A stretch of DNA of 64,000 bases from contig NZ_CP061913.1 in assembly GCF_019904175.1 (NCBI RefSeq), positions 1,736,001-1,800,000 of the forward strand, given 5' to 3'. Source of the stretch: Dactylosporangium vinaceum (GTDB lineage Bacteria; Actinomycetota; Actinomycetes; Mycobacteriales; Micromonosporaceae). The position numbers were made by a program, and so were the translations under genes. The notes under the pieces are model-generated. The model made no database searches. It was given only the letters and a program-made list of their open reading frames with translations, and had not been told where the DNA came from. Below are positions 11,305 through 61,868 of the stretch, piece after piece; positions within the stretch are counted from its first letter, which is position 1; each line of letters starts with the position of its first letter.

Positions 11305-11400
11305 ACCATAACCGCGTTACAGAACCGCAATACAAGACCGCAACCGGCTTCACCCCCCGCTGGTCTTCTAACGACGACCTTGACCAACGGGGGAGGGGCT

Positions 11401-14382
11401 TTGCTGGCTCTCGTGCTCGCAGCGTTGCGTGCCCGGCGCGTCCAGGCACTGACGTTGGTGCTGCTCAGCACCCTCGCCGCGGCCGCTGCGGCGGCGTCGC
11501 CCTGGTATGTGCTGGCCTCCACCGAGCGGATCGCCACGCGGCACGTGGAGAGCGCCCCGATCCAGGAGCGGTCCCTCGAGGCGATCGGTGAGGGTGTGGT
11601 CGAGGGTGGGTCGGTCGAGGCGCAGCTGGACGCGACCGCCCACCTGACCCAGCGCATCGTGGGGCTGCCCGGCTTCGTGACGTACACCGAGGCGTACCTC
11701 TCCGGGCAGGCGACCACCGGCAGCGGCAAGTCCAGCGGCGGCGCGGCCACCGGCGGCACCGACGCCCGCAGCACCGACTCCCAGCTCGTGGCCCGCACCG
11801 ACGCCTGCACCCACGCGACCTTCGAGGGCCGGTGCCCGGCCGCCGCGGACGAGGTCGCGGTCAGCTACCGCACCGCCCGCTGGCTGCGGGTCAAGGCCGG
11901 CGACACGCTCTCCTACGCCGCGTCGGGGCTGCCCCGGCCGCTGGAGCTGAAGATCGTCGGCGTCTACCGGCCCGACAACGCCAACGCCCCGTTCTGGACG
12001 AGCAACAACGACCTCGTCGCCAAGTCGCTGCCGACGAGCGCCGCCCCGGAGATCACCGAGCCGGTCGACGACGCCATGCTGTCCGCACCCGCGCTGTTCG
12101 ACAAGAGCCTGGCCACCGTCTCCATCCGCACCGCCGTCGACATGGTCGCGCAGCCGTCGCTGCTCGTCGACAACGCACCCGAGGACGTCGCCGCGCGCAT
12201 GGCCGGGGCCACCGTCGAGGCCGGCAACAACCGGCTGACCCTCAACACCCAGCTCCCGGCGACGATCGACAAGGTCGAGCGGGACCGCCGGCTCGTGTCG
12301 CTGGGCGTGCCCGTCGGCGCGTTCCAGCTGCTCGTGCTGTGCTGGTTCGCCCTGTATCTGGCGGTCAAGTACACCGGCGAGGAGCGGCGCCCGGACATCG
12401 GGCTGGTGAAGCTGCGCGGCGCCACCCGGCTGCGCACCTGGGCCCTGGTGAGCGGGCAGAGCGCCCTGCCGATGCTGGCCGGGGCGGTGCTGGGGCTGCC
12501 GATCGGGTACGCCGCCGCGACCGCCGTCACCGGCACCATCAAGGACGCCGGCGTCAACGCGCAGGCGGCCGAGCTGTCCGTCGGCGCGGCCGCGGTGGCC
12601 GTGCTCGGCGCGCTGCTGGCCGCCCTGCTGGCCGAGCGGCGCGCGCTGTCCTCCAGCGTGTCCGAGCTGCTGCGCCAGGCCTCGGCCCGCTCCCGGGTCT
12701 GGCGCGACCTGTTCGACCTGCTGCTCGTCGCGCTCGCGATCGTCGCGGTCTGGCAGGTCAAGAACCGCGCGTCGGGTGACGCGGCCGGCCTGGCGCTGCT
12801 CGCGCCCGGGCTCGCCGCGCTGGCCTTCGCGCTTGTCGCGGCCCGCGTCATCACGTTCAGCGCGAGCCGGATGGTCGAGGGTGCGCTGCGCCACGGGCAC
12901 CCGGCCCGCGCGCTCACCGCCATCTACCTGGCCCGCCGCCCCGGCGTCCACCGGCTCGCGGCGCTGATGATCGCGACCGTGGCCCTGCTGACCACCTCGG
13001 CCCTGACCTGGAACACCGGGCGCGTCGCCGGCGAGACCCGGGCCGAGATGGAGGTCGGCGCCGACCGGGTGCTGACCGTCCGGGCCGAAAACCGTCTGGC
13101 CCTGCTCACCGCGGTCCGGGCGGCCGACCCGGGCGGTGAGCACGCGATGGCCGCGGTCGAGTCGGTGCTCAGCGGCAACGACCGCGTCCTGCTCGTCGAC
13201 AGCCCGCGGCTGGCCAAGGTGGCGACCTGGCGCCCGGAATACGGCCTCAGCGCCGAGCGCACGGCGGCGCTGCTGCACCCCGAGGCGCCCGCCCCGATCA
13301 CCGTGACCGGCGGGGACCTGTCCGTCGATCTGACGACGCACTTCACAACGACAGAGGCGAGCCGTCTGGTGTACCTCGATGTCGTGCTGGCCGACCCGAA
13401 GGGTGCGCGGGTCGCGGCGCGCCTCGGCCCGCTCGCCGAGGGGCAGCAGACCCTGAAGGCGTCCCTGCCCGGCTGCGCGGCCGCGCCCGGGTGCCGGCTC
13501 AGCTCGCTGCAGATCACGCAGACCACCCAGGACCAGAAGATCTTCTTCGCGGCCCGGCCCGGGGTCGACCTGACAGTGCACGCGATGACCGCGGGCGGCC
13601 GGCCGGCGCTCAGCAAGGAGCAGCTTGTCGACCGCACCCGGTGGCGCCTCGGCGTCAACGGCAACCCGCCGAACCTCATCGCCGGCCCGGCCGCCGACGG
13701 GCTGCAGTTGAGCGTCGCCCCGATCCGCAGCAGCGGCATCAGCGACCCGGGCGTGTACCCGATCGACACCCCGGCCCCGCTGACCAGCCTGCGCGCCACC
13801 AAGTTGCAGACGCGGCTGGTGGGTGACCAGCGGGTCAGCTTCGGCTCCGTCTCGATGTCCGAGCAGATCGCCGGCATCGTCCCGGCCCTGCCCCGGCTGG
13901 GCACCAAGGGCGTGCTGCTCGACCTGGAGTACGCGGACCGGCTCGGTGCCGACTTCGGCGCCGGGGAGTCCCTGCAGGTCTGGCTCAACGCGGGCGCACC
14001 GGCCGACATCGTCAAGCGGCTGCAGGACCAGGGGCTGCTCGTGCTCGGCGACGATTCGATAGCCGGCGTCACCAAGCAGTACGCCTCGTTCGGCCCGCCG
14101 CTGACCCTGCAGTTCATGCTGCTCTCGGCGATGGTCGGGCTGATCCTGGCCATCGGGACCGTGTCGGTCGTCGCCGCCGTCGAGCGAAGGCCGAGAGCCC
14201 GGGAGCTCGGCGCGCTGCGGGCCCAGGGCGCCCCGGCCCGGCTGGTCGCGCGGGTGGGCCGCGAGGGCTACCTGGTGCTGGCGATCACCTCGCTCGTGTT
14301 CGGCCTGATCCTGGCCGCCGTGATCCGCGCCTACATCGGCGACGTCCTGCCCTACTTCGCCGACGGTTGGAGCAAGCCGTGA
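11401..14382 (+). CDS. Large FtsX-type ABC permease, first of a tandem pair
   Basis: A 993-residue paralogue of the permease at 2881. I take TTG 11401 as start because GGGGAGGGG lies four bases upstream and the sequence then aligns with the next permease (LALVLAALRARRVQALTLVLLS against IGLVLSMVRARPGQALTAFLLS); an upstream TTG at 11380 is in frame but poorly placed. One N-terminal helix, a large external domain, the core VLCWFALYLAVKYTGEERRPDIGLVKLRG near residue 315, further helices, a second external domain, and about three C-terminal helices. The TGA stop is part of a GTGA overlap with the first 30-codon bridging ORF. It probably forms a heterodimer with the permease at 14557, using the ATPase at 17774. 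Confidence 0.88.
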   Translation: MLALVLAALRARRVQALTLVLLSTLAAAAAAASPWYVLASTERIATRHVESAPIQERSLEAIGEGVVEGGSVEAQLDATAHLTQRIVGLPGFVTYTEAYLSGQATTGSGKSSGGAATGGTDARSTDSQLVARTDACTHATFEGRCPAAADEVAVSYRTARWLRVKAGDTLSYAASGLPRPLELKIVGVYRPDNANAPFWTSNNDLVAKSLPTSAAPEITEPVDDAMLSAPALFDKSLATVSIRTAVDMVAQPSLLVDNAPEDVAARMAGATVEAGNNRLTLNTQLPATIDKVERDRRLVSLGVPVGAFQLLVLCWFALYLAVKYTGEERRPDIGLVKLRGATRLRTWALVSGQSALPMLAGAVLGLPIGYAAATAVTGTIKDAGVNAQAAELSVGAAAVAVLGALLAALLAERRALSSSVSELLRQASARSRVWRDLFDLLLVALAIVAVWQVKNRASGDAAGLALLAPGLAALAFALVAARVITFSASRMVEGALRHGHPARALTAIYLARRPGVHRLAALMIATVALLTTSALTWNTGRVAGETRAEMEVGADRVLTVRAENRLALLTAVRAADPGGEHAMAAVESVLSGNDRVLLVDSPRLAKVATWRPEYGLSAERTAALLHPEAPAPITVTGGDLSVDLTTHFTTTEASRLVYLDVVLADPKGARVAARLGPLAEGQQTLKASLPGCAAAPGCRLSSLQITQTTQDQKIFFAARPGVDLTVHAMTAGGRPALSKEQLVDRTRWRLGVNGNPPNLIAGPAADGLQLSVAPIRSSGISDPGVYPIDTPAPLTSLRATKLQTRLVGDQRVSFGSVSMSEQIAGIVPALPRLGTKGVLLDLEYADRLGADFGAGESLQVWLNAGAPADIVKRLQDQGLLVLGDDSIAGVTKQYASFGPPLTLQFMLLSAMVGLILAIGTVSVVAAVERRPRARELGALRAQGAPARLVARVGREGYLVLAITSLVFGLILAAVIRAYIGDVLPYFADGWSKP

Positions 14383-14471
14383 GGGGTTCCGAGCGCAGCG
14401 AGGAGGCCCCTCACCAGGGACACAGTTGGGTGCTCGCGTCGGCACCGGAGCTTGCGGAGGTGGCGGCGTGA
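14379..14471 (+). CDS. 30-residue bridging mini-ORF, copy 1
   Basis: Reads GTG...TGA, 30 residues beginning MRGSERSEEAPHQGHSW and ending ELAEVAA. It overlaps the upstream permease stop by GTGA and the next mini-ORF by GTGA. No homology to a known peptide is recognised. Its likely use is translational coupling: ribosomes leaving the permease could reinitiate here and pass on. Whether the peptide itself matters is unknown. The strong Shine-Dalgarno-like GGAGGTGG near its 3' end serves the following start rather than its own. Confidence 0.4.
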   Translation: MRGSERSEEAPHQGHSWVLASAPELAEVAA

Positions 14472-14556
14472 GGGGTTCCGAGCGCAGCGAGGAGGCCCCT
14501 CACCAGGGACACAGTTGGGTGCTCGCGTCGGCACCGGAGCTTGCGGAGGTGGCGGC
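14379..14556 (+). repeat. Two exact tandem copies of an 89-bp coupling cassette
   Basis: Copies at 14379-14467 and 14468-14556 appear identical. Each begins with GTGAGGGG, forms a hairpin with CCCCTCAC (14379-14414 and 14468-14503, loop containing GAGCGCAGCGA) and ends with the ribosome-binding sequence GCGGAGGTGGCGGC just before the next GTGA. The upstream permease stop, both cassette junctions and the downstream permease start all use GTGA. The 25 bases ending each unit (14447-14471, 14536-14560) recur exactly at 61844-61868. Confidence 0.9.
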
Positions 14557-14560
14557 GTGA
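14468..14560 (+). CDS. 30-residue bridging mini-ORF, copy 2
   Basis: Identical in sequence to copy 1. Its GTG start overlaps the stop of copy 1, and its TGA overlaps GTG 14557 of the second permease. It is preceded by GCGGAGGTGGCGGC, a good ribosome-binding site, which makes translation plausible. The second copy is also open in the frame of the downstream permease, so a gene caller may wrongly extend that permease upstream to 14452. Confidence 0.42.
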   Translation: MRGSERSEEAPHQGHSWVLASAPELAEVAA

Positions 14561-17500
14561 TCGGGCTCGTGCTGTCGATGGTCCGGGCCCGGCCGGGGCA
14601 GGCCCTGACCGCGTTCCTGCTGTCGGTGTTCGCGCTGGCGGCGGCCGTCAGCGCGCCGGTGTACTCCGCGACCGCCGACCGGGCCGTGGTGCACAGCGAG
14701 GTCCAGTCCGCGCCCGTCGGGGACCGGGTCGTGCAGGCCCGGCGGACCTCGCCGTCGCCCACCGACCGCGACTTCGAGAACGTGCTGCCCCAGCTGTTCA
14801 CCGGCAACGGGTTCAGCAGCGTGTTCAGCACCGAGTTCGACACGCTCATCGAGCCGGCGGCCCCGGACGGCGCGGAGATCGCGCCGCGGTTCGTCTACCG
14901 TGACGACCTCTGCGCGCACGTGCGGATGACCGCCGGGCGCTGCTTCATCAGCGAGACCGAGGTGATCCTCAGCCCCGCCCAGGCCGACAAGCTCAAGCTG
15001 CGCGTCGGGGCCACGTTCCCGGCGACGTTCGCGAAGATCTCGGGGGAGGGCGACTACGTCGCGGCCGGGCCGCCGCTCGTGCTGACCCTCGTCGGCACCT
15101 ACGAGCCGCTGAACAAGTCCGAGCAGTACTGGTCCGACCTCGACTACTTCAACCCGCGCGCCAGCAACCGCTACACCACCGAGCCGATGTTCGCCGGCCG
15201 GCTCACGCTGGAGGCGGTGCCGCAGCACGGCCCGGAGAAGCAGGCCCTCGACGTCGTCATCGACGACTCGGCCATCAGCCGGGAGTCGCTCGACGCCATC
15301 AACGCCCAGGTGCAGACCGGCAAGGAGAAGCTGGAGGCGCTGCCCGGCCGGCCGGTCGTCAGCACCGGGCTGCCCAACCTGCTCAAGCGGATCGACGGCG
15401 ACCGGAGCCTCGTCGCCCAGGTCGTGCCCGTGGCGGCGGTACCCCTCGTGCTCCTGTGCTGGTTCGTGCTCTTCATCGCCGTGGCCGCCGCGACCCAGGA
15501 GCGGCGCCTGGAGCTGGGCCTGTTCTCGCTGCGCGGCATCACCGTCTCGCGGCGCTGGTGGCTCGCGGCCGGCGAGAGCATCGTGCCGATCCTGGCTGGC
15601 GCCGTCGCCGGCTTCTTCCTCGGGCACTACCTGGTCCGGCTGGCCGCGTACCTGCTGCTGAGCGCCTCGTCCGACGTGCCGATCGGGGCCGGCCTCAACC
15701 TGTGGGCGTTCGTCTCCCTCGCGGGCGTGCTCGTCGCCGCACTGCTGGCCCAGCGGGCCGAGCTGGTCAAGCGGACCGTCGACCTGCTGCGCAACGTGCC
15801 GAGCCGGGCCTCGCGCTGGAACGCGCCGGTGTTCGAGGTCGTCGTCGTGGTGCTGGCCGTCGTCGCCGTCGTCCAGCTGCGCCGGGGCGGCGGCGGGCTC
15901 ACCGGGTTCGCGCTCGTCGCCCCGTCCGCGGTGGTCATCGCGGTGGCGCTCGTCGCGGCCCGGCTGGTGCTGCCGATCGCCGAGGTGATCGGCCGCCGGG
16001 CCGCGCGCCGCGGGCGGATCGGGCCCATGCTGGCCGCCTACGCGCTCTCCCGGCGCCCCGGCACCCAGCGGATCCTCGCCCTCTTCGTCGTCGCGATAGG
16101 CCTGACCGTCTTCGCCGCGACGGCGGCCGGCGCGGCCGGCGACGCCCGCACCCGCCGGGCCCAGGTCGAGCTCGGCGCGCCGCGGGTGCTCAGCGTCGAC
16201 CCGCTCAGCCGGTCCTCGATGCTGGCCAAGGTCCGCGCGGTCGACCCGGACGGCAAGTTCGCGATGGCCACGGCGATGCTGCCGGTCTCCGAGGACAACG
16301 TGCCGCCGATGCTGGCCGTGGACAGCCGCGCGCTGGCGTCGGCGTCGCTGTGGAGCGACCCGAAGATGTCCGCCGAGCAGGCCCACGAGCTGCTGCACCC
16401 GGGCACGCCGCGCGACTCGATAATCGTCGACAACAAGGAGCTCGCCCTCGACGTCACCATCACGAGCCTCGGCGACGCGTTCCGGGTGCACTGGGTCGCC
16501 GTCGTCGTGCCCGAGGACGGCACCGGCGTCGGCCGGGTGGACCTGGGCAAGGTGGTCGCCGGGCGGCAGACGTACGTGCGCAACCTGCCGATGTGCGTCA
16601 ACAAGTGCCGGCTCGCCGCGCTGGAGCTGGAGCAGCCGGAGGGCCGCGGCTTCGACGCCGACATGGTGGTGCACAGCCTCAGCCAGCACGGTGACAAGCT
16701 CGTCGACGAGGCCGCGTTCGCCCGGGCCGACGACTGGCGGGTGCCGGAGACGCCCGGGCCGAAGCTCCTGGTGCCCGAGCTGGCCGGCGTCCAGGACGGG
16801 CTGCGGGCGACGATCTCGGGGTACAAGGGCGCCGACACCGCTTTCAAGATCTTGCCGACCGACGTGCCGAGCCCGCTGCCGGTCATCGCGGCCCGCACCG
16901 CCGGAGTCGGCGACCACATGACGGGCTTCGACGAGTCGCGGCAGGCGATCGACATCGTCGGCGAGGTCGAGACCGTGCCGCGGCTGGGCTACAGCGGCGG
17001 CATCGTCGACATGGAGTACGCCGAGCGGCTGTCCACGGACGGCGGTGACACGGAGTACGCCCAGATCTTCCTCGGCCCGAACGCGCCCGCGGACGTCGTG
17101 GACCAGCTGCGTAAGCAGGGCATCACGGTGAGCGGCGACCGGTCGATCGGGCCGGTCCGCGACGTGCTCGACGAGCAGGGGCCGGCGATCGCGCTGCGCT
17201 TCCACGAGATGGCCGGCATCCTCGCGGTGATCCTGGCCGTCGGCGCGCTGTGGCTGGTCTCGAGCCTCGACCGGCTGCGCCGCGCGGGTGAGCTGCGGGC
17301 GCTGCGGGCCCAGGGCATCGCCCGCCGCGACGCCGCGGCCAACGGATATCTGGCGCTCGTCGGCACGGCCGCGGTGCTGGCACCGTTCGCAGCCCTGGCG
17401 AGCTGGCTCGTGGTGCGCGAGTATCTTCCGGTGTTCAGTGACAACCCGGAGGGCTTCACGGCGTCATACTGGCCGTCACCCCTTCCGGTCGCCGTCGCCT

Positions 17501-17583
17501 GGGCAGCGGGCTCGGCGCTGCTCGTCGTCGCGGCGGTCGTCGCCGGGATACGCCTGCGATCCGCGACACAGCGCCGGCGATAG
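14557..17583 (+). CDS. Large FtsX-type ABC permease, second of a tandem pair
   Basis: A 1008-residue permease starting at GTG 14557 just after GGAGGTGGCGGC. The order of parts matches its neighbours: N-terminal helix (about residues 8-28), external domain, the core LLCWFVLFIAVAAATQERRLELGLFSLRG near 297, a helix-rich middle, a second external domain with VVPEDG and NLPMCVNKCRL cysteines, and C-terminal helices with the WLVSSLDRLRRAGELRALRAQG loop. It is clearly paralogous to the permeases at 2881 and 11401. The gene ends with TAG and is followed after 11 nt by a small ORF that bridges to the ATPase. Confidence 0.9.
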   Translation: MIGLVLSMVRARPGQALTAFLLSVFALAAAVSAPVYSATADRAVVHSEVQSAPVGDRVVQARRTSPSPTDRDFENVLPQLFTGNGFSSVFSTEFDTLIEPAAPDGAEIAPRFVYRDDLCAHVRMTAGRCFISETEVILSPAQADKLKLRVGATFPATFAKISGEGDYVAAGPPLVLTLVGTYEPLNKSEQYWSDLDYFNPRASNRYTTEPMFAGRLTLEAVPQHGPEKQALDVVIDDSAISRESLDAINAQVQTGKEKLEALPGRPVVSTGLPNLLKRIDGDRSLVAQVVPVAAVPLVLLCWFVLFIAVAAATQERRLELGLFSLRGITVSRRWWLAAGESIVPILAGAVAGFFLGHYLVRLAAYLLLSASSDVPIGAGLNLWAFVSLAGVLVAALLAQRAELVKRTVDLLRNVPSRASRWNAPVFEVVVVVLAVVAVVQLRRGGGGLTGFALVAPSAVVIAVALVAARLVLPIAEVIGRRAARRGRIGPMLAAYALSRRPGTQRILALFVVAIGLTVFAATAAGAAGDARTRRAQVELGAPRVLSVDPLSRSSMLAKVRAVDPDGKFAMATAMLPVSEDNVPPMLAVDSRALASASLWSDPKMSAEQAHELLHPGTPRDSIIVDNKELALDVTITSLGDAFRVHWVAVVVPEDGTGVGRVDLGKVVAGRQTYVRNLPMCVNKCRLAALELEQPEGRGFDADMVVHSLSQHGDKLVDEAAFARADDWRVPETPGPKLLVPELAGVQDGLRATISGYKGADTAFKILPTDVPSPLPVIAARTAGVGDHMTGFDESRQAIDIVGEVETVPRLGYSGGIVDMEYAERLSTDGGDTEYAQIFLGPNAPADVVDQLRKQGITVSGDRSIGPVRDVLDEQGPAIALRFHEMAGILAVILAVGALWLVSSLDRLRRAGELRALRAQGIARRDAAANGYLALVGTAAVLAPFAALASWLVVREYLPVFSDNPEGFTASYWPSPLPVAVAWAAGSALLVVAAVVAGIRLRSATQRRR

Positions 17584-17594
17584 GGGCGGGGACA

Positions 17595-17777
17595 ATGGGC
17601 CGGTTCACCGGGGAAGGCGCGACACCCACCGCGGCGTCGCGCCCGCGCGGCGACCGTCCCGGCGGGGTGGTCATCGCCGATCGTGTCGAGGGTGAGGCGG
17701 ACGTGGTGAGCGCCGAACGCCGGCGATCGGTGAGGCTGAGCGAAGCGATGAGGGCTGAAGGGATGGGGACGCGGTGA
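17595..17777 (+). CDS. 60-residue bridging small ORF before ATPase
   Basis: ATG 17595 follows GGGGCGGGGAC and the frame ends in a TGA that overlaps GTG 17774 (GTGA). The product is Arg/Glu-rich (MGRFTGEGATPTAASRPRG... then RRRSVRLSEAMRAEGMGTR) with no recognised domain; internal in-frame GTGs at 17706 and 17730 are alternative starts. It contains GTGAGGCTGAGCGAAGCGA (17730 onward), which resembles the hairpin loop of the 89-bp cassette upstream. It may be a real small protein, a translational bridge, or leader sequence. Confidence 0.35.
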   Translation: MGRFTGEGATPTAASRPRGDRPGGVVIADRVEGEADVVSAERRRSVRLSEAMRAEGMGTR

Positions 17778-18646
17778 ACGGATTGGCGGTCGCCTGCCGG
17801 CGGGTCGTGCACATCTACCGGGCCGAGGCGGGTGACGTCGTTGCCCTGGCCGGTGTGGACCTGTCGATCGGGCCGGGGGAGACGCTCGCGCTCGTCGGGC
17901 CGTCCGGCTCGGGCAAGTCGACGCTCATCGCGCTGCTCGCCGGGCTCATGCGCCCGTCGGCCGGCCGGGTCAACATCGGCACCTACGACATGGGCAAGCT
18001 CTCCGACGGCGAGATCGCCCGGCTGCGCGGCACCGAGATCGGCGTGGTCCTGCAGGGCGCGGCGCGCAACCTGCTGCCCTATGCGTCGCTGCACCGCAAC
18101 ATCTGGCTGGCCCAGCGGCGGGCCGCCCGCACCGAGGGCATCAAGCTCGACGACCCCGACCGCATCCTCGACCTCGTCGGCCTGCCCGGCCTCGGCCGCG
18201 CCCGGATCGACGAGCTGGCTCCCGGCGCCCGGCAGCGGGCCGCGCTCGCGGTCGGCATCGCGGCCGGCCCCGGCCTGCTCCTCGTCGACGAGCCCACCAG
18301 CCAGCTCGACACGCACGGCCGCGACGAGGTCCTCGAGGCCCTGGAGACGGTCAACCGGGAGCGCAACACCACGATCGTCGTCGTCACGCACGACAGCGAC
18401 GTCGGCACCCGGCTCGGGCGCGCGGTGACCATCCGCGACGGGCGGGTCGGCGCCGAAGGCCGCGACGGGCAGGACTTCGCGGTGGTGGCGGGAGACGGCA
18501 CGGTACAGCTGCCGCCGGAGGTTCTTGGAGACTTCCCGCCGGGAACGCTCTTCACCGTCGAGCACATCGACGGGTCCGTGACACTGGTGGCGGGTGGATC
18601 CGACCGGTCGCTTGCGGCAGATCACCACGGGCACGTGCAAAACTAG
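17774..18646 (+). CDS. ABC transporter ATPase with altered signature motif and AbrB-like tail
   Basis: A 290-residue paralogue of the ATPase at 5922. Start GTG 17774 follows GGGATGGGGA. Walker A GPSGSGKST, Q-loop VVLQGAARN, Walker B GLLLVDEPTSQLD and H-loop THDSD are intact, but the signature is LAPGARQ, even further from LSGGQ than its paralogue. The last 60 residues (DGTVQLPPEVLGDFPPGTLFTVE) repeat the AbrB-like extension. No canonical partner ATPase is encoded next to it, so it may act as a homodimer with two weak sites or borrow the subunit from the 5922-7429 operon. It completes the transport operon that starts at 11401. Confidence 0.9.
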   Translation: MNGLAVACRRVVHIYRAEAGDVVALAGVDLSIGPGETLALVGPSGSGKSTLIALLAGLMRPSAGRVNIGTYDMGKLSDGEIARLRGTEIGVVLQGAARNLLPYASLHRNIWLAQRRAARTEGIKLDDPDRILDLVGLPGLGRARIDELAPGARQRAALAVGIAAGPGLLLVDEPTSQLDTHGRDEVLEALETVNRERNTTIVVVTHDSDVGTRLGRAVTIRDGRVGAEGRDGQDFAVVAGDGTVQLPPEVLGDFPPGTLFTVEHIDGSVTLVAGGSDRSLAADHHGHVQN

Positions 18647-44039: not shown

Positions 44040-44880
44040 GCCTGCGTCCCGACCTGCCTCCCGCCGCCGGACAGCACAGTCACGACGCGACGCGGACGTC
44101 CACCCGCCTGGGCGTCCGCACGTTCGCCCGCGCGTTTGTGCGCCCGCCCGCTACGCGTCCGCCCGCTACGCGCCCGCCCGCTACGCGTCCGCGCGTTCCC
44201 CCGTGCTTGTGCGTCTGAGTGCCTCGCGTCCGAGCTGCCTCGCGCGCTACGCGTCCGCGCGCTACGCGTCCGCGCGCTACGTGTCCGCGCGCTACGTGTC
44301 CGCGCGCTACGTGTCCGCGCGCTACGTGTCCGCGCGGCGTCTGCGTGCCTCGCGTCCGGGCGTTCCCCCGCGCTTGTGCGTCCAAGCGCGTCGCGTCCGT
44401 GCACCTGGCGTCCGTGCACCTTGCGTGGTTCGCCCGCCCGCTTACGCGTCCGCGCGCTACGCGTTTACGTGCCGCGCGTCCGCGCGTCCCCCCGTGCCTG
44501 TGTGTCCGAGTGCCTCGCGTCCGAGCGTCCCGCGTCCGAGCGTCCCGCGTCCGTGCGCCTCGCGCGTTGATCCGCCCGCATACGCGTCCGCGCGCTACGC
44601 ATTCGCGCAGCATCTGCCTGCCTCGCGTCCGCGCGCATCGCATCCGCGGGCTACGCGTCCGTGCGCCTCGCGCGTTCGTCGTCCGAGCGCTCGCGTCCGT
44701 GCGCCTCGCGCGTTCGTCGTCCGCGCGCTACGCGTCTGAGCGGCGTCTGCGTGCCTTGCGTCCGCGCGCTACGCGTCCGAGCGCTCGCGTCCGAGGGCCT
44801 CGCGCGGTCGCCCGTCCGCTTGCGCGTTCGCGCGCTACTCGTCCGCGCGTTCGCGGGGTGCGGGTGTTGTTTCTTCGGGC
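44040..44880. repeat. Second GC-rich repeat island with a clean 15-bp array
   Basis: Six consecutive copies of GCTACG(C/T)GTCCGCGC start at 44246, 44261, 44276, 44291, 44306 and 44321. Looser versions fill the rest, with GCGTCCGAGC and TACGCGTCCGCGC words. Open frames in all directions reflect composition only. No gene lies in the 1 kb between the TPP enzyme and the HAD gene. The core word is shared with the islands at 0.5-2.7, 58.4 and 60.3 kb. Confidence 0.8.
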
Positions 44881-47252: not shown

Positions 47253-49003
47253 GGAGCGATCACCGCGTTCGGGCTCGGGTTCGGGCTCGGGCTTTGGGCC
47301 GCCCTTGTGGTCTCACTTGGGCTCGGACTTTGGATTGTGCTCTCGCTCGGGCGCGTCCGCGCGGGAGCGGGCTCCTCGGCCAGGTCGTGGTTGGGGCGCA
47401 GCAGCCACCAGGCGGCGAACACCCAGAGGCCCGCGAGGACGCAGCTGCCGAGGATGTCGGTGGGGTGATGCATGCCGCGGTACATCCGCGAGACCGCCAC
47501 CCACAGCGGCATCAGCACCGCCGCCGCCACGGGCAGCCAGCGCCACCACGCGCGGGTGCGCGGCATGACCAGCACGGCCGCGACGAGCCAGATGCAGATG
47601 GTGGCCGCGACGTGCCCGGACGGGAAGCTCGACGTCGGCATCGGCCCGTCCATGTTCTCCACGTCCGGCCGGGCCCGCCCGACGATCGCGGCGCTGCCCA
47701 GGAAAAGGCTGAGCTCGCCGAACATGACAGTGACCAGAAAGACGACCGGCCGCCAGCGGCGTATCACGGCCAGCGCCAGGGCCCCGATCGCCAGGCCGAT
47801 GGCGAGGATGGCATGGGTGTTGCCGACCTCGCTGCCGACGATTGTGACGTGTCCGAGCGCGTCCGTACGGTGCCCGGCGAACCAGTGCGGGATCGTGCTG
47901 TCGCCCAGAATGTTGCCGTTGCCGGCGCGGTAGCGGGCCAGCGGGACGCCAAGCCCGACGAGCGCGCCGAACGTCAGCACCCATGCCACGCCGAGCCCGG
48001 CAACAATCCACCCCCGCCCACGCCTGCTCTCGCTTCCGCGCGGCGTGCCGCTTCCGCGCATGGGGTCGCTTCCGCGCGTGGTCGCCGCGTCGCCGTCCGT
48101 GCGCGCGGCGGCGAGGTCGCTTCCGCGCGGCGTGCCGCTCCCGCGGGTCAGGCCGCTTCCGCGCGGCGAGTCGCTCCCGCGCGTGGTCGCCGCGTCGCCG
48201 TCCGCGCGCGCGGGAGCGTCGTCGCTTCCGCGCGAGTGGAGGAGCGGCAGCTCACGCTCGGGGATGGGCGGGTGCGACGAGGTCAGCTGGAGGTCGTCGG
48301 CGGCCTCGGGCGCCAACCCCACGACCAGCGGCGCGGTGACCTGCTCGCCGCGCTCGTACCGCCACAGCTCGAACGCCCCCGCGCACAGCCCCACCCAGGC
48401 CACGGCCAGCGACCAGCCGCCCAGGACGTCGGAGAGGAAGTGCACGCCGAGCGCCAGCCGGCTGAACCCGATGAGGGCCACCAGCGCCCCCACCGCGATG
48501 AGCAGCGGCCGCCGCCACCGCGCGGGCAGGGCCGGCAGGAAGACCAGGACCAGCGCCGCATAACAGATGAACGAGTTCAGCGAGTGGCCGCTGGGGAAGC
48601 TGTTGCCGCCCCCGTGCGCGACGGGCTGCTCGACGACGGGGCGCAGGCGGCCGACCGCGATCTTGAGTACCGGGTCGAGGACGAGGCCCCCGAGCGAGGT
48701 GGCCAGCAGGAAGAGGGCCAGGCGGAATTGTCGGCGCACCAGCAGTACCACCGAAGCAATGGCAATGAACCAGCCGAGCACGCCGAAGCTGCCGAGCCGG
48801 CTGATGCCGCCCATGAGCTGGACGAGGGCGTCACTCGGCGCGACCAGGCGATTCAGGCTGTTCGCGACGCCGCGGTCGATCGACTCCATCGGCACCCAGC
48901 GCACCCGCACGGCGATCACCAGCACGGTGAACAGCAACGCCGCGGCGCTGAACGCGGAGATGCGTAGAAGTGTCGCCTTGTCACGTCTCACGTTTGATGG
49001 CAT
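47249..49003 (-). CDS. Membrane protein with two PAP2 phosphatase domains
   Basis: A 584-residue fusion of two PAP2/DedA-unrelated lipid phosphatase domains. ATG 49003 (MPSNVRRDKATLL) starts before the first helix; the frame upstream is antisense. Domain 1 has KIAVGRLRP (114-122), NSFPSGHS (135-141) and SRLALGVHFLSD (181-192). Domain 2 has GRARP, SSFPSGHVAA and SRMYRGMHHPTD, so both active sites look complete. Known relatives dephosphorylate phosphatidic acid, undecaprenyl diphosphate or similar lipids; one domain per chain is the rule. The linker (about 250-330) is a Ser/Arg/Gly/Asp repeat. The C-terminal tail is Ser/Pro-rich. Confidence 0.88.
   Translation of the reverse strand: MPSNVRRDKATLLRISAFSAAALLFTVLVIAVRVRWVPMESIDRGVANSLNRLVAPSDALVQLMGGISRLGSFGVLGWFIAIASVVLLVRRQFRLALFLLATSLGGLVLDPVLKIAVGRLRPVVEQPVAHGGGNSFPSGHSLNSFICYAALVLVFLPALPARWRRPLLIAVGALVALIGFSRLALGVHFLSDVLGGWSLAVAWVGLCAGAFELWRYERGEQVTAPLVVGLAPEAADDLQLTSSHPPIPERELPLLHSRGSDDAPARADGDAATTRGSDSPRGSGLTRGSGTPRGSDLAAARTDGDAATTRGSDPMRGSGTPRGSESRRGRGWIVAGLGVAWVLTFGALVGLGVPLARYRAGNGNILGDSTIPHWFAGHRTDALGHVTIVGSEVGNTHAILAIGLAIGALALAVIRRWRPVVFLVTVMFGELSLFLGSAAIVGRARPDVENMDGPMPTSSFPSGHVAATICIWLVAAVLVMPRTRAWWRWLPVAAAVLMPLWVAVSRMYRGMHHPTDILGSCVLAGLWVFAAWWLLRPNHDLAEEPAPARTRPSESTIQSPSPSETTRAAQSPSPNPSPNAVIAP
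48010..48235 (-). repeat. Repeat insertion in the linker of the double PAP2 gene
   Basis: The + strand shows repeated GCTTCCGCGCG and GTGGTCGCCGCGTCGCCGTCC words; the protein reads DGDAATTRGSD twice and RGSGTPRGS twice. The composition matches the intergenic repeat islands. The insertion keeps the reading frame and falls between the two domains. Confidence 0.65.
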
Positions 49004-56617: not shown

Positions 56618-56643
56618 TACAGCAGCGTCCGTGCGTCCGTGGC

Positions 56644-56846
56644 GGGCCGGAGTGGGGCTTCAGCGGCTCTTGGTCGCCGCGCGATGGGCCCGCTCGACCC
56701 GCGCCCGGCAGGGCGGCCACCAAGGCGTCCACGTCGGCCGTAGTGGGCCGGAGTGGGGCTTCAGCGGCTCTTGGTCGCCGCGCGATGGGCCCGCTCGACC
56801 GCACCCGGCAGGGCGGCCACCAAGGCGTCCACATCGGCCATCGTGG
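56644..56846. repeat. Imperfect 101-bp tandem duplication at the 3' end of the cysteine desulfurase gene
   Basis: Copy A (56644-56744) and copy B (56745-56846) are nearly the same; copy B encodes the last 28 or so codons of the desulfurase. Copy A lies beyond the stop codon, with a one-base length difference in the CGACC(C)GC run and a few substitutions. Confidence 0.85.
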
Positions 56847-57924: not shown

Positions 57925-58757
57925 CGGGGCCAAGCCTAACGGCCTGCCACCCCTTACCACCTCTCCGGTATGGCAGCGTTCGCGCCACTCCCGAACCCAC
58001 CGGGTCCATGACCGCACCGGTGACGGCACCGGGCGTAACGGGCGTGCCGCAATCATCGGCCGGCAGCGATACTGGTCGGCCTGCCGAAAGCGCCCGGGCA
58101 CCGCCATCCGCCCACTACTGAACGTGATTGCGTAGGGGCGATGTGCCACGTTCCTGAAAATGTCCGATGCGGTGCGCATCGACGCAATTACGAATAGCAA
58201 GTTTCTCGCCAGGTGCATCCAACGGCGGGCCAGACTCCGAAACATCCTCGAGAACGACCATCGTTACCGCACTCACTCCAGGACGTGCCCGTGCGACGGC
58301 GGCGATCGCAGCCACCGAGCGGACCCCGGACAGCACCCGGGCGCCCGCTGGACAACCGCGCCCGGCGAGGGCCACGCAAGCGCACCCGCCTGACACCGCT
58401 TTCGAGCGCCGCGACGCCACCGCGTCCGAGCGCTTGGCCGCCGCTTCCGAGCGCCGGGCCGCCCCCGTGCGCCATTGCCTGGCCTGCGTCGCGTCCGAGC
58501 GTCGAGCCGGCGCCGCGCGCCATGGCCTGGCCTGTGTCGCGTCCGAGCGTCGAGCCGGCGCCGTGCGCCAGCGCGGAGCTTGTGTCGCGTCCGAGTGGTG
58601 GGCCCGTGTCGCATCCGAGCGCTGAGCTGACCTCGCGCGCCCGTGCCCGTGCCCGTGCCCGCGCCATCGCCATCGCCATCGCCGAGCTTGCGGCGCGTCC
58701 GAGCGCCGGCGCGACGCTGCGGACAAGCGCCCGGTCACCGCGGCACGACGGCATCCG
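57925..58757. other. Non-coding region with third repeat island
   Basis: No intact gene. The part 57940-58270 is mixed sequence with an AT-rich patch at 58160-58205. The part 58400-58700 holds degenerate repeats: GCGTCCGAGC at 58491, 58539 and 58587 gives a 48-bp period, with looser copies outside. Both strands show long but meaningless open frames. Confidence 0.6.
58165..58181. promoter_or_regulatory. Operator-like palindrome
   Basis: CGATGCG-GTG-CGCATCG, exact 7-bp arms, at the edge of an AT-rich patch between the cysteine desulfurase and the ECF sigma gene. No promoter could be tied to it. Confidence 0.35.
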
Positions 58758-60255: not shown

Positions 60256-60750
60256 ACCACAACCACCCGGCCCGCGGGCGCACACACCCGATCTCCCGCA
60301 TACACGCGGACGGGCGCACCGATGCTGGCTGCGAGCTCTCGCCGACGCGCGGACGCGGGCACTGATGCTGGCTGCGAGCTCTCGCCGACGCCCGGGCGTA
60401 GGTGCTGGAAGTCCGCCGACGCGCGGACGCGGGTGCTGGGAGTCTGCTGGCGCGCGGACGCGGGTGCTGGGAGTCTGCCGGCGCGCGGTCGCGGACACGG
60501 CTGGTGGCTGCGAGCGCCCGTCGCCGCGCGGATGTCTCACCCTTTCGCCAACGCGCGGACGCGGGGCGCGGGCGCTGCCGGCTTCTGCCGCGGCGCGGAC
60601 CGCCTCCGCACCGGCGCTGCCAGCTCCTGCCACCGCGCGGATTGCCTCCGCGCTGGCGCTGCGGTCCCCTCCGCGCGGCGCTTTCGGTGGGGCTGCCGAG
60701 TGGGTAATCGCGCGGGCGCGGGATGGGGAGAGGGGGCGAAACAGGGCATC
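60256..60750. repeat. Fourth repeat island, inverted orientation
   Basis: Two copies of GATGCTGGCTGCGAGCTCTC start at 60321 and 60364 (43 bp apart), and two copies of GCGCGGACGCGGGTGCTGGG at 60421 and 60452 (31 bp apart). The core reads GCGCGGACGC, the complement of the GCGTCCGCGC seen in the other islands. No gene. From about 60780 the DNA becomes AT-richer and leads into the next promoter. Confidence 0.7.
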
Positions 60751-60990: not shown

Positions 60991-61779
60991 GTGCCAGTCG
61001 AAACCACTTCCATGGATGAAGCCACCGAGATCATTGCGGTCAACGATCTCTCGTCGCCGGTATTCGTCGATGCTTCGGGTCGCCGGGGAAGGCGAATCCG
61101 AATTGTTTTCGGCGCGCTCGGTGCGGCGACGCTTGTCTATGGCGCGCTGGTCGCCACGAGCCTTGTCGGCGGACCGCTGAAGCCGCAGCAGCTGCTGCCG
61201 TTCCCGGAGCTGGTGAACAACCTGCCGGGCGTCGAGCAGCCGCCGCCCGCGGCCCAGCCCGGGTCCAACAACCAGGCCGTCAAGCCGCCCGCGGTCACGA
61301 CGGCGAAGAAGATCAAGAACGCCAACAAGCCGGCGCAGAGCGGTGCCATCGCGGTGCCGTCGGCGACGTCTACCGGCGCGCCGGTTCCCGGTACCACCAC
61401 AACCACGGCACCGCCGCCCGCGGAGGCCACTGTCGCCCCGCCGACGGCGCTTCCGAGCGCCACGCCGACCAAGGCGGCGGACCCCGGCAAGAGCCCGACC
61501 GGTGGTCCGGGGACCGATCCGACCGGGACGCCGACGCCCACGGCGACCCCGGCCAGCGAGGGCACGGCGTTCCCGGGCGGGAACGCCACCGGCTCGGGGG
61601 CGAAGCCGTCGGCGGACACGGTGCCGGTCGGAGAGACCCAGACCCAGACGCAGCCTCCGGCCGCGACGCCGGCCGCCACCAGCACGGGTGGCGGCGGCAC
61701 GGGGACCAGAGGCACGGGGTCCGGCGGGACGGGTACCGGTGCCACGCCTAGCGCCACCGCGAGCCTGGGCCCGGCGTGA
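60991..61779 (+). CDS. Membrane-anchored Pro/Thr/Ala-rich protein in a MatAB-like operon
   Basis: A 262-residue protein from GTG 60991: a cytoplasmic N-terminus of about 35 residues, one helix (IRIVFGALGAATLVYGALVATSLV, about 37-60), and an external part of 200 residues rich in Pro, Thr, Ala and Gly (TTTTTAPPPAEATVAPP and the like). No catalytic domain. Its position before a deacetylase-glycosyltransferase recalls matA of Streptomyces matAB, which is needed for the extracellular glycan that clumps mycelia; similarity in sequence is not shown. The TGA overlaps the GTG of a 30-codon bridging ORF. The Thr-rich part could be O-glycosylated. Confidence 0.75.
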   Translation: MPVETTSMDEATEIIAVNDLSSPVFVDASGRRGRRIRIVFGALGAATLVYGALVATSLVGGPLKPQQLLPFPELVNNLPGVEQPPPAAQPGSNNQAVKPPAVTTAKKIKNANKPAQSGAIAVPSATSTGAPVPGTTTTTAPPPAEATVAPPTALPSATPTKAADPGKSPTGGPGTDPTGTPTPTATPASEGTAFPGGNATGSGAKPSADTVPVGETQTQTQPPAATPAATSTGGGGTGTRGTGSGGTGTGATPSATASLGPA

Positions 61780-61868
61780 GCCGTCCGCAGCGGACCGGAA
61801 CGACCGCCCGCCGGCGGCTCGGAGCTGAGCTCGCACCGGCGAAGGAGCTTGCGGAGGTGGCGGCGTGA
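61776..61868 (+). CDS. 30-residue bridging mini-ORF, related to the cassette at 14379
   Basis: GTG 61776 overlaps the upstream stop (GTGA), and the TGA overlaps GTG 61865 of the glycosyltransferase (GTGA). The product is MSRPQRTGTTARRRLGAELA then PAKELAEVAA, exactly 30 residues like the bridges at 14379 and 14468. The last 25 bases are identical to those bridges and contain the GGAGGTGGCGGC ribosome-binding site; the first two thirds differ. This shows a shared 3' module at two unrelated operons. Confidence 0.45.
   Translation: MSRPQRTGTTARRRLGAELAPAKELAEVAA

Follow-up and report, generated by a model that had tools for sequence, protein, structure and literature searches.

Tandem units at a junction of two permease genes

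The window analyzed here is a 64,000-nucleotide stretch of the Dactylosporangium vinaceum genome. Within it, two genes encoding FtsX-type ABC permeases, which lie in the same cluster as a gene for an ABC ATPase, are joined by an exact tandem of two 89-bp units (14378-14466 and 14467-14555) with 100% identity. The GTG of the first unit overlaps the stop codon of the upstream permease gene (TGA 14380-14382, within GTGA 14379-14382), and the TGA of the second unit overlaps the start of the downstream permease gene (GTG 14557, within GTGA 14557-14560). Tandem duplication inside the array is the most likely origin of the exact second copy. A third, diverged unit in the window is situated 3' of an ORF of 262 amino acids (60991-61779) and 5' of an ORF beginning at GTG 61865. 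Table 1 lists the coordinates of these features.

Table 1. Units, hairpins, ribosome-binding sites, and genes considered in the window
Feature	Position	Strand	Remarks
Upstream FtsX-type ABC permease	11380..14382	+	Pfam FtsX, E 1.1e-9; start codon uncertain
Unit 1 / mini-ORF 1	14379..14471	+	GTG 14379 to TGA ending 14471; 30 codons; period 89 bp
5' hairpin of unit 1	14379..14414	+	GTGAGGGG / CCCCTCAC, GCGCAGC tip; predicted fold; both-side changes support the helix
3' hairpin of unit 1	14436..14469	+	Encloses the ribosome-binding site; predicted fold, both-side changes
Shine-Dalgarno GGAGG	14456..14460	+	7 nt before GTG 14468
Unit 2 / mini-ORF 2	14468..14560	+	GTG 14468 to TGA ending 14560; 30 codons; identical to unit 1
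5' hairpin of unit 2	14468-14503	+	Predicted; identical to unit 1 hairpin
3' hairpin of unit 2	14525-14558	+	Predicted; identical to unit 1 hairpin
Second Shine-Dalgarno GGAGG copy	14545-14549	+	7 nt before GTG 14557
Downstream FtsX-type ABC permease	14557..17583	+	Pfam FtsX, E 2.5e-7; start GTG agrees with orthologues
ABC ATPase	17774..18646	+	Same gene cluster as the two permeases
Third, diverged unit	61776..61868	+	GTGA to GTGA

The sequence-only reading of this locus had described tandem 89-bp units with 30-codon ORFs in GTGA overlaps, each unit folding a 5' hairpin and ending in a strong ribosome-binding site. The units and their overlaps were confirmed as read from the sequence, a GGAGG indeed precedes each start by 7 nt, and the hairpin is present in the predicted fold of the unit. 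At -45.2 kcal/mol in total, the unit is not unusually stable (the mean for shuffles was -39.5 with a standard deviation of 3.6, giving a z score of -1.6), and 18 of 200 shuffles of the unit folded equally well. Covariation was judged from changes on both sides of a pair in the 5' and 3' helices: among 62 distinct D. vinaceum units, these were found at 7 pairs in 29 cells, compared to 2.5 and 9.9 in shuffles, and among 80 matches from relatives, which had been aligned without structure, they were found at 10 pairs in 42 cells. For the relatives, shuffles gave 4.2 and 10.6, and slid versions did not exceed 6 and 13. In roughly half of these units (26/60 and 31/~61 cells with letters), the two outermost TGA pairs of the 5' hairpin are not formed. 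The both-side changes thus support the 5' helix, its outermost pairs only in part. RNAalifold, run on the 62 units, chose a different consensus fold and not the single-sequence hairpins. A GCGNAGC tip is found at the 5' hairpin in 60 of the 62 units, and hairpin tips of this type are very stable. An Rfam scan of 14300-14650 returned only a chance-level match. In the main subfamily of one relative (G001, L095-L113), the 5' loop, read by eye, ends in GGCTGCGAATC, which leaves the RTGAN arm without a pairing partner; the sequence would permit a shifted stem, CGCAGC/GCTGCG.

A dispersed family placed at start codons

BLAST with a 94-nt unit gave 68 matches in the 11.96-Mb D. vinaceum genome. Moreover, a sequence model built from the alignment of the 62 distinct units (80 places had been fetched, yielding 74 clusters) gave at least 151 matches genome-wide, fragments included. 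This recurrence indicates that the 89-bp tandem is not a product of chance. Of the 62 distinct full-length units, 61 have RTGA at each end; the units measure 93 nt in 58 cases, 91 nt in 2, and 94 nt in 2; in the four units of 91 or 94 nt, the mini-ORF is fused in frame with the following sequence and is not terminated. The family includes subfamilies with periods of about 81 to 90 bp. Complete arrays, 51 in all, contain one unit (23 arrays), two (15), three (8), four (3), or five (2), and identity is 93% within arrays versus 82% between arrays. RTGA-bounded mini-units of ~33 bp were also seen (L110, 970-996; L113, 1177-1203; L100, 1158-1188); they appear as if the middle had been lost by recombination between two internal GGAGC-GCGGAGG motifs.

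To describe placement, we trained a codon model on four genes of the window and scored the 51 complete arrays of the 74 clusters, leaving out 23 clusters with incomplete ends. The last RTG was the start of the best-scoring downstream frame in 49/51 arrays, the first TGA was the stop of the best-scoring upstream frame in 38/51, and both held in 37/51; in 13 of the 51, no in-frame upstream gene was scored ahead of the array. The start codon is thus the common feature, and overlap with a stop, though frequent, is not found throughout. A possible stop/start relay from the first RTG to the last is unbroken in all 51 arrays, by way of overlaps in 48 and of in-frame fusion in 3, compared to a mean of 26.7 and a maximum of 36 when the interiors were shuffled with RTGA sites kept (200 rounds). 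A Shine-Dalgarno-like motif precedes the last start in every complete array but the first start in only 27. Furthermore, premature stops are absent from all 58 units of 93 nt, versus 19% for column-resampled units. The synonymous share of single-base codon changes was 55/323, or 17% versus 27.5% expected, a comparison that structural constraint on the DNA could distort. The frame of the mini-ORF is kept, and conservation of the peptide is not apparent.

Two further claims of the sequence-only reading bear on these results. It had proposed a modular element, to be checked by looking for further copies, and the units do recur genome-wide at RTGA junctions of unrelated operons. It had also held that translational coupling stays unbroken across the inserted units, which agrees with the possible relay in all complete arrays.

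The sequence model matched 7/7 Dactylosporangium genomes. It matched 15 of 121 genomes of the family (the 7 Dactylosporangium genomes and 8 others) and, under strict filters, 2 of 296 genomes of the class, namely, D. vinaceum itself and one false match. A pattern scan of genome contigs, with the D. vinaceum genome excluded, gave 63 stretches, 62 from Dactylosporangium and 1 from Virgisporangium. The relatives include Dactylosporangium fulvum, D. roseum, D. sucinum, and Dactylosporangium sp. AC04546. A match outside the family (G271) was rejected, as it has no RTGA ends. True RTGA-bounded tandem 89-bp units were observed in another genus of the same family (L260, G042:C1:303700-304800), where they have a lower G+C content and AAGGAG as the ribosome-binding site. 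A literature search, outside of which subscription papers largely fell, found no paper on such an element in Dactylosporangium.

Empty junctions and the RTGAN end

The joined gene ends of 12 junctions were used as queries in the 7 genus genomes, and 7 of the 12 junctions were followed. The 32 junction sequences obtained comprised 22 bare overlaps (20 with RTGA and 2 with TGATG), 6 with a unit, 3 with a spacer but no unit, all of these at one junction, and 1 cut by a contig end. At the permease junction of the window, five of six relatives are empty (GTGA in G002, G003, G005, and G006; ATGA in G004), and the sixth, G001, carries one unit of another subfamily. Different species would thus have gained units at the same junction. 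Insertion is favored over deletion because 22 sequences are empty versus 6 filled and because different subfamilies occupy one junction; reversion by deletion to a bare overlap is possible at individual junctions. Since most orthologous junctions are empty, the units are better read as dispersed insertions than as a conserved control device.

We then compared the first unit with the start of the downstream gene in 84 arrays, 46 from D. vinaceum and 38 from relatives (101 rows minus 15 unit-like and 2 nonfamily rows; the unit-like filter dropped at least one row, L169, that is perhaps a gene and would have matched). Base 1 of RTGAN matches in 76 arrays, where 55.9 would be expected with stratification, and base 5 in 67, where 36.5 would be expected (P = 1e-5 each). 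The counts at bases 6, 7, and 8 (63, 44, and 27 arrays) are in line with expectation, and the permutation test is weak at these bases because the unit hardly varies there. The unit has C at base 6 irrespective of the target, which suggests that base 5 is the last base of the repeat. In 27 further arrays, bases 1 and 5 both match in 18 versus 10.6 expected (P = 2.5e-4); taken singly, base 1 gave P = 0.024 and base 5 gave P = 0.012. This replication set came from 40 stretches, 5 of them without a usable row, and 8 of the 35 arrays were removed as previously used sites; at least one of its rows looks miscalled at the right end. Right ends were called as the first RTGA with a Shine-Dalgarno motif and an open frame. 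Among 12 arrays at six junctions whose empty state is known, base 1 matches in 9 and base 5 in 8. The window site itself shows agreement at base 1 but not at base 5.

The matching at RTGAN, which is statistical only, suggests that a 5-bp target is duplicated or that insertion is guided by sequence identity; some sites, that of the window among them, are exceptions. No inverted pair joining the unit ends was found, such as the terminal inverted repeats of a MITE of a DDE transposon. A model in which the right arm of the hairpin acts as a guide and picks the target was disfavored: in 8 arrays with arms that differ at base 5, the left arm matches in 6 (one of which, L160, is of questionable family membership) and the right arm in none.

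Interpretation and relation to known repeats

Altogether, we consider it very probable that the units represent a dispersed mobile repeat, similar to MIRUs, that restores the stop/start overlap at each junction where it lands. The repeat would consist of a core of about 84 bp plus an RTGAN end and would insert at RTGA start codons, usually within the 4-bp stop/start overlap of two genes, leaving RTGA on both sides. The RTG of the unit would take over the upstream stop, the 30-codon stop-free frame would carry the ribosome to the unit's own GGAGG, and the terminal TGA would overlap the next start. Ribosomes may use this stop/start relay, and a passing ribosome may open the 3' hairpin over the next ribosome-binding site. 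Insertion could proceed via single-strand or identity-guided recognition of RTGAN, and the element may be neutral or selfish. The results fit a mobile repeat that is tolerated because it leaves coupling unbroken, and insertions can accumulate in this way within operons without obvious polar breaks.

A further proposal, which we put forward tentatively, is that of a nonautonomous family specialized for translation starts, in which RTGAN is recognized, its 5 bases are duplicated or paired, the overlap is rebuilt at both ends, and a mobilizer perhaps acts on single-stranded DNA or RNA. If true, an element specialized for translation starts could pile up in operons without breaking coupling, and its mobilizer would link translation-start architecture to transposition. 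Searches for Y1_Tnp and RVT_1 in the D. vinaceum and genus genomes identified no mobilizing enzyme. RVT_1 matches occur in 7/7 genus genomes. A reverse transcriptase of ~450 amino acids with PQGAP[ST]SP and YADD motifs, which we take to be retron-like, was observed in 6/7 Dactylosporangium genomes (L251, G000:C1:11694832-11695383, and L252 to L256); it was rejected as a demonstrated mobilizer because G003 has 26 element matches but not this enzyme.

In a rival view, which follows the sequence-only reading, the units are a regulatory cassette under selection to adjust the relative expression of neighboring genes. Such a cassette would account for the conserved Shine-Dalgarno motif before the last start (51/51), the preserved relay, the two covarying hairpins around the start and the Shine-Dalgarno motif, and the variation in copy number from 1 to 5 units between arrays. 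However, orthologous junctions are mostly empty (22 of 32, with 6 filled), filled ones can hold another subfamily, and the insertions lie between unrelated gene pairs. The tuning claim is also not supported at the locus for which it was made, where five of six relatives have no unit and the sixth has another subfamily, and 13 of 51 arrays have no scored upstream frame. We thus regard a tuning role as unlikely.

Movement of a REP-like element by a Y1 (IS200/IS605, RAYT) transposase appears less probable still. Here the hairpin adjoins a fixed tetranucleotide target, terminal inverted repeats are not seen, and the very stable-looking GCGNAGC tip (60/62 units) would suit such an enzyme, which could since have been lost; nonetheless, Y1_Tnp had no match in the D. 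vinaceum genome and matches in only 1/7 genus genomes, with 5/14 control genomes positive. Least credible is a gene for a small peptide, secreted or regulatory, that multiplies and disperses, with the 30-residue peptide (consensus MSGTERSGVAAHQCCRAELRPAPELAEVAA) as the selected product. The lack of premature stops in the 58 units of 93 nt would be expected of such a gene, but synonymous changes are not enriched (55/323), the middle of the peptide varies freely, and 4 of 62 distinct units fuse the frame instead of ending it.

Returning to the mobile repeat, its closest known kind is the mycobacterial MIRU. We class it as a variant of the MIRU type, with no claim of shared ancestry, because it has the anatomy described for MIRUs, which are mobile repeats that sit at start codons and contain an internal ORF with -4 coupling. 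MIRUs are short tandem repeats of 40 to 100 bp at 41 places in Mycobacterium tuberculosis H37Rv (PMC2734929); they look mobile, are inserted at start codons, and contain an internal ORF coupled with a -4 spacing (PMC12548453), and lengths of 77 and 53 bp are given (PMC4213456). Likewise, the Dactylosporangium units stand in tandem at tens of places (89-bp period, 1 to 5 units per array), are inserted at start codons (49/51) with an internal ORF, a 4-nt overlap, and a relay (51/51), and are absent at orthologous junctions of related species (22/32 empty, 6 filled). The quoted lengths of 77 and 53 and those of 89 and 83 here all leave a remainder of 2 on division by 3, as the relay requires. In contrast to MIRUs, the Dactylosporangium repeats occur in Micromonosporaceae and not mycobacteria, have covarying hairpins and RTGAN end matching, and occupy more places than the 41 quoted. 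Among the MIRU functions proposed by Supply et al. in 1997, as told in PMC2734929, is differential translation in operons, an idea that the sequence-only reading shares and that stays a proposal for MIRUs and here alike.

A second lineage with many copies, empty and filled states in named relatives, and an RTGAN signature makes insertion site, direction, and hairpin role testable in nonpathogens; to our knowledge, how MIRU-type repeats move is unsolved. REP/RAYT elements resemble the units as dispersed hairpin repeats of <100 bp that have a short invariant sequence at their base. However, REPs lie between genes and are not known to carry an ORF, whereas the Dactylosporangium units carry one, and the Y1 transposase is absent from the D. 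vinaceum genome. Rickettsia palindromic elements (RPEs) are likewise short hairpin repeats in coding frames that stay unbroken; RPEs insert within genes, in frame, whereas the Dactylosporangium arrays lie at start codons in 49/51 cases.

The window also contains many imperfect GC-rich tandem repeats with periods of about 15 to 109 bp (876-2497, 44140-44804, 48031-48234, 58394-58665, and 60305-60662), which look like low-complexity decay outside the 89-bp family. A 101-bp repeat at 56637-56846, with two copies that are 93% matching, was unrelated to the 89-bp unit in the sequence-model scan.
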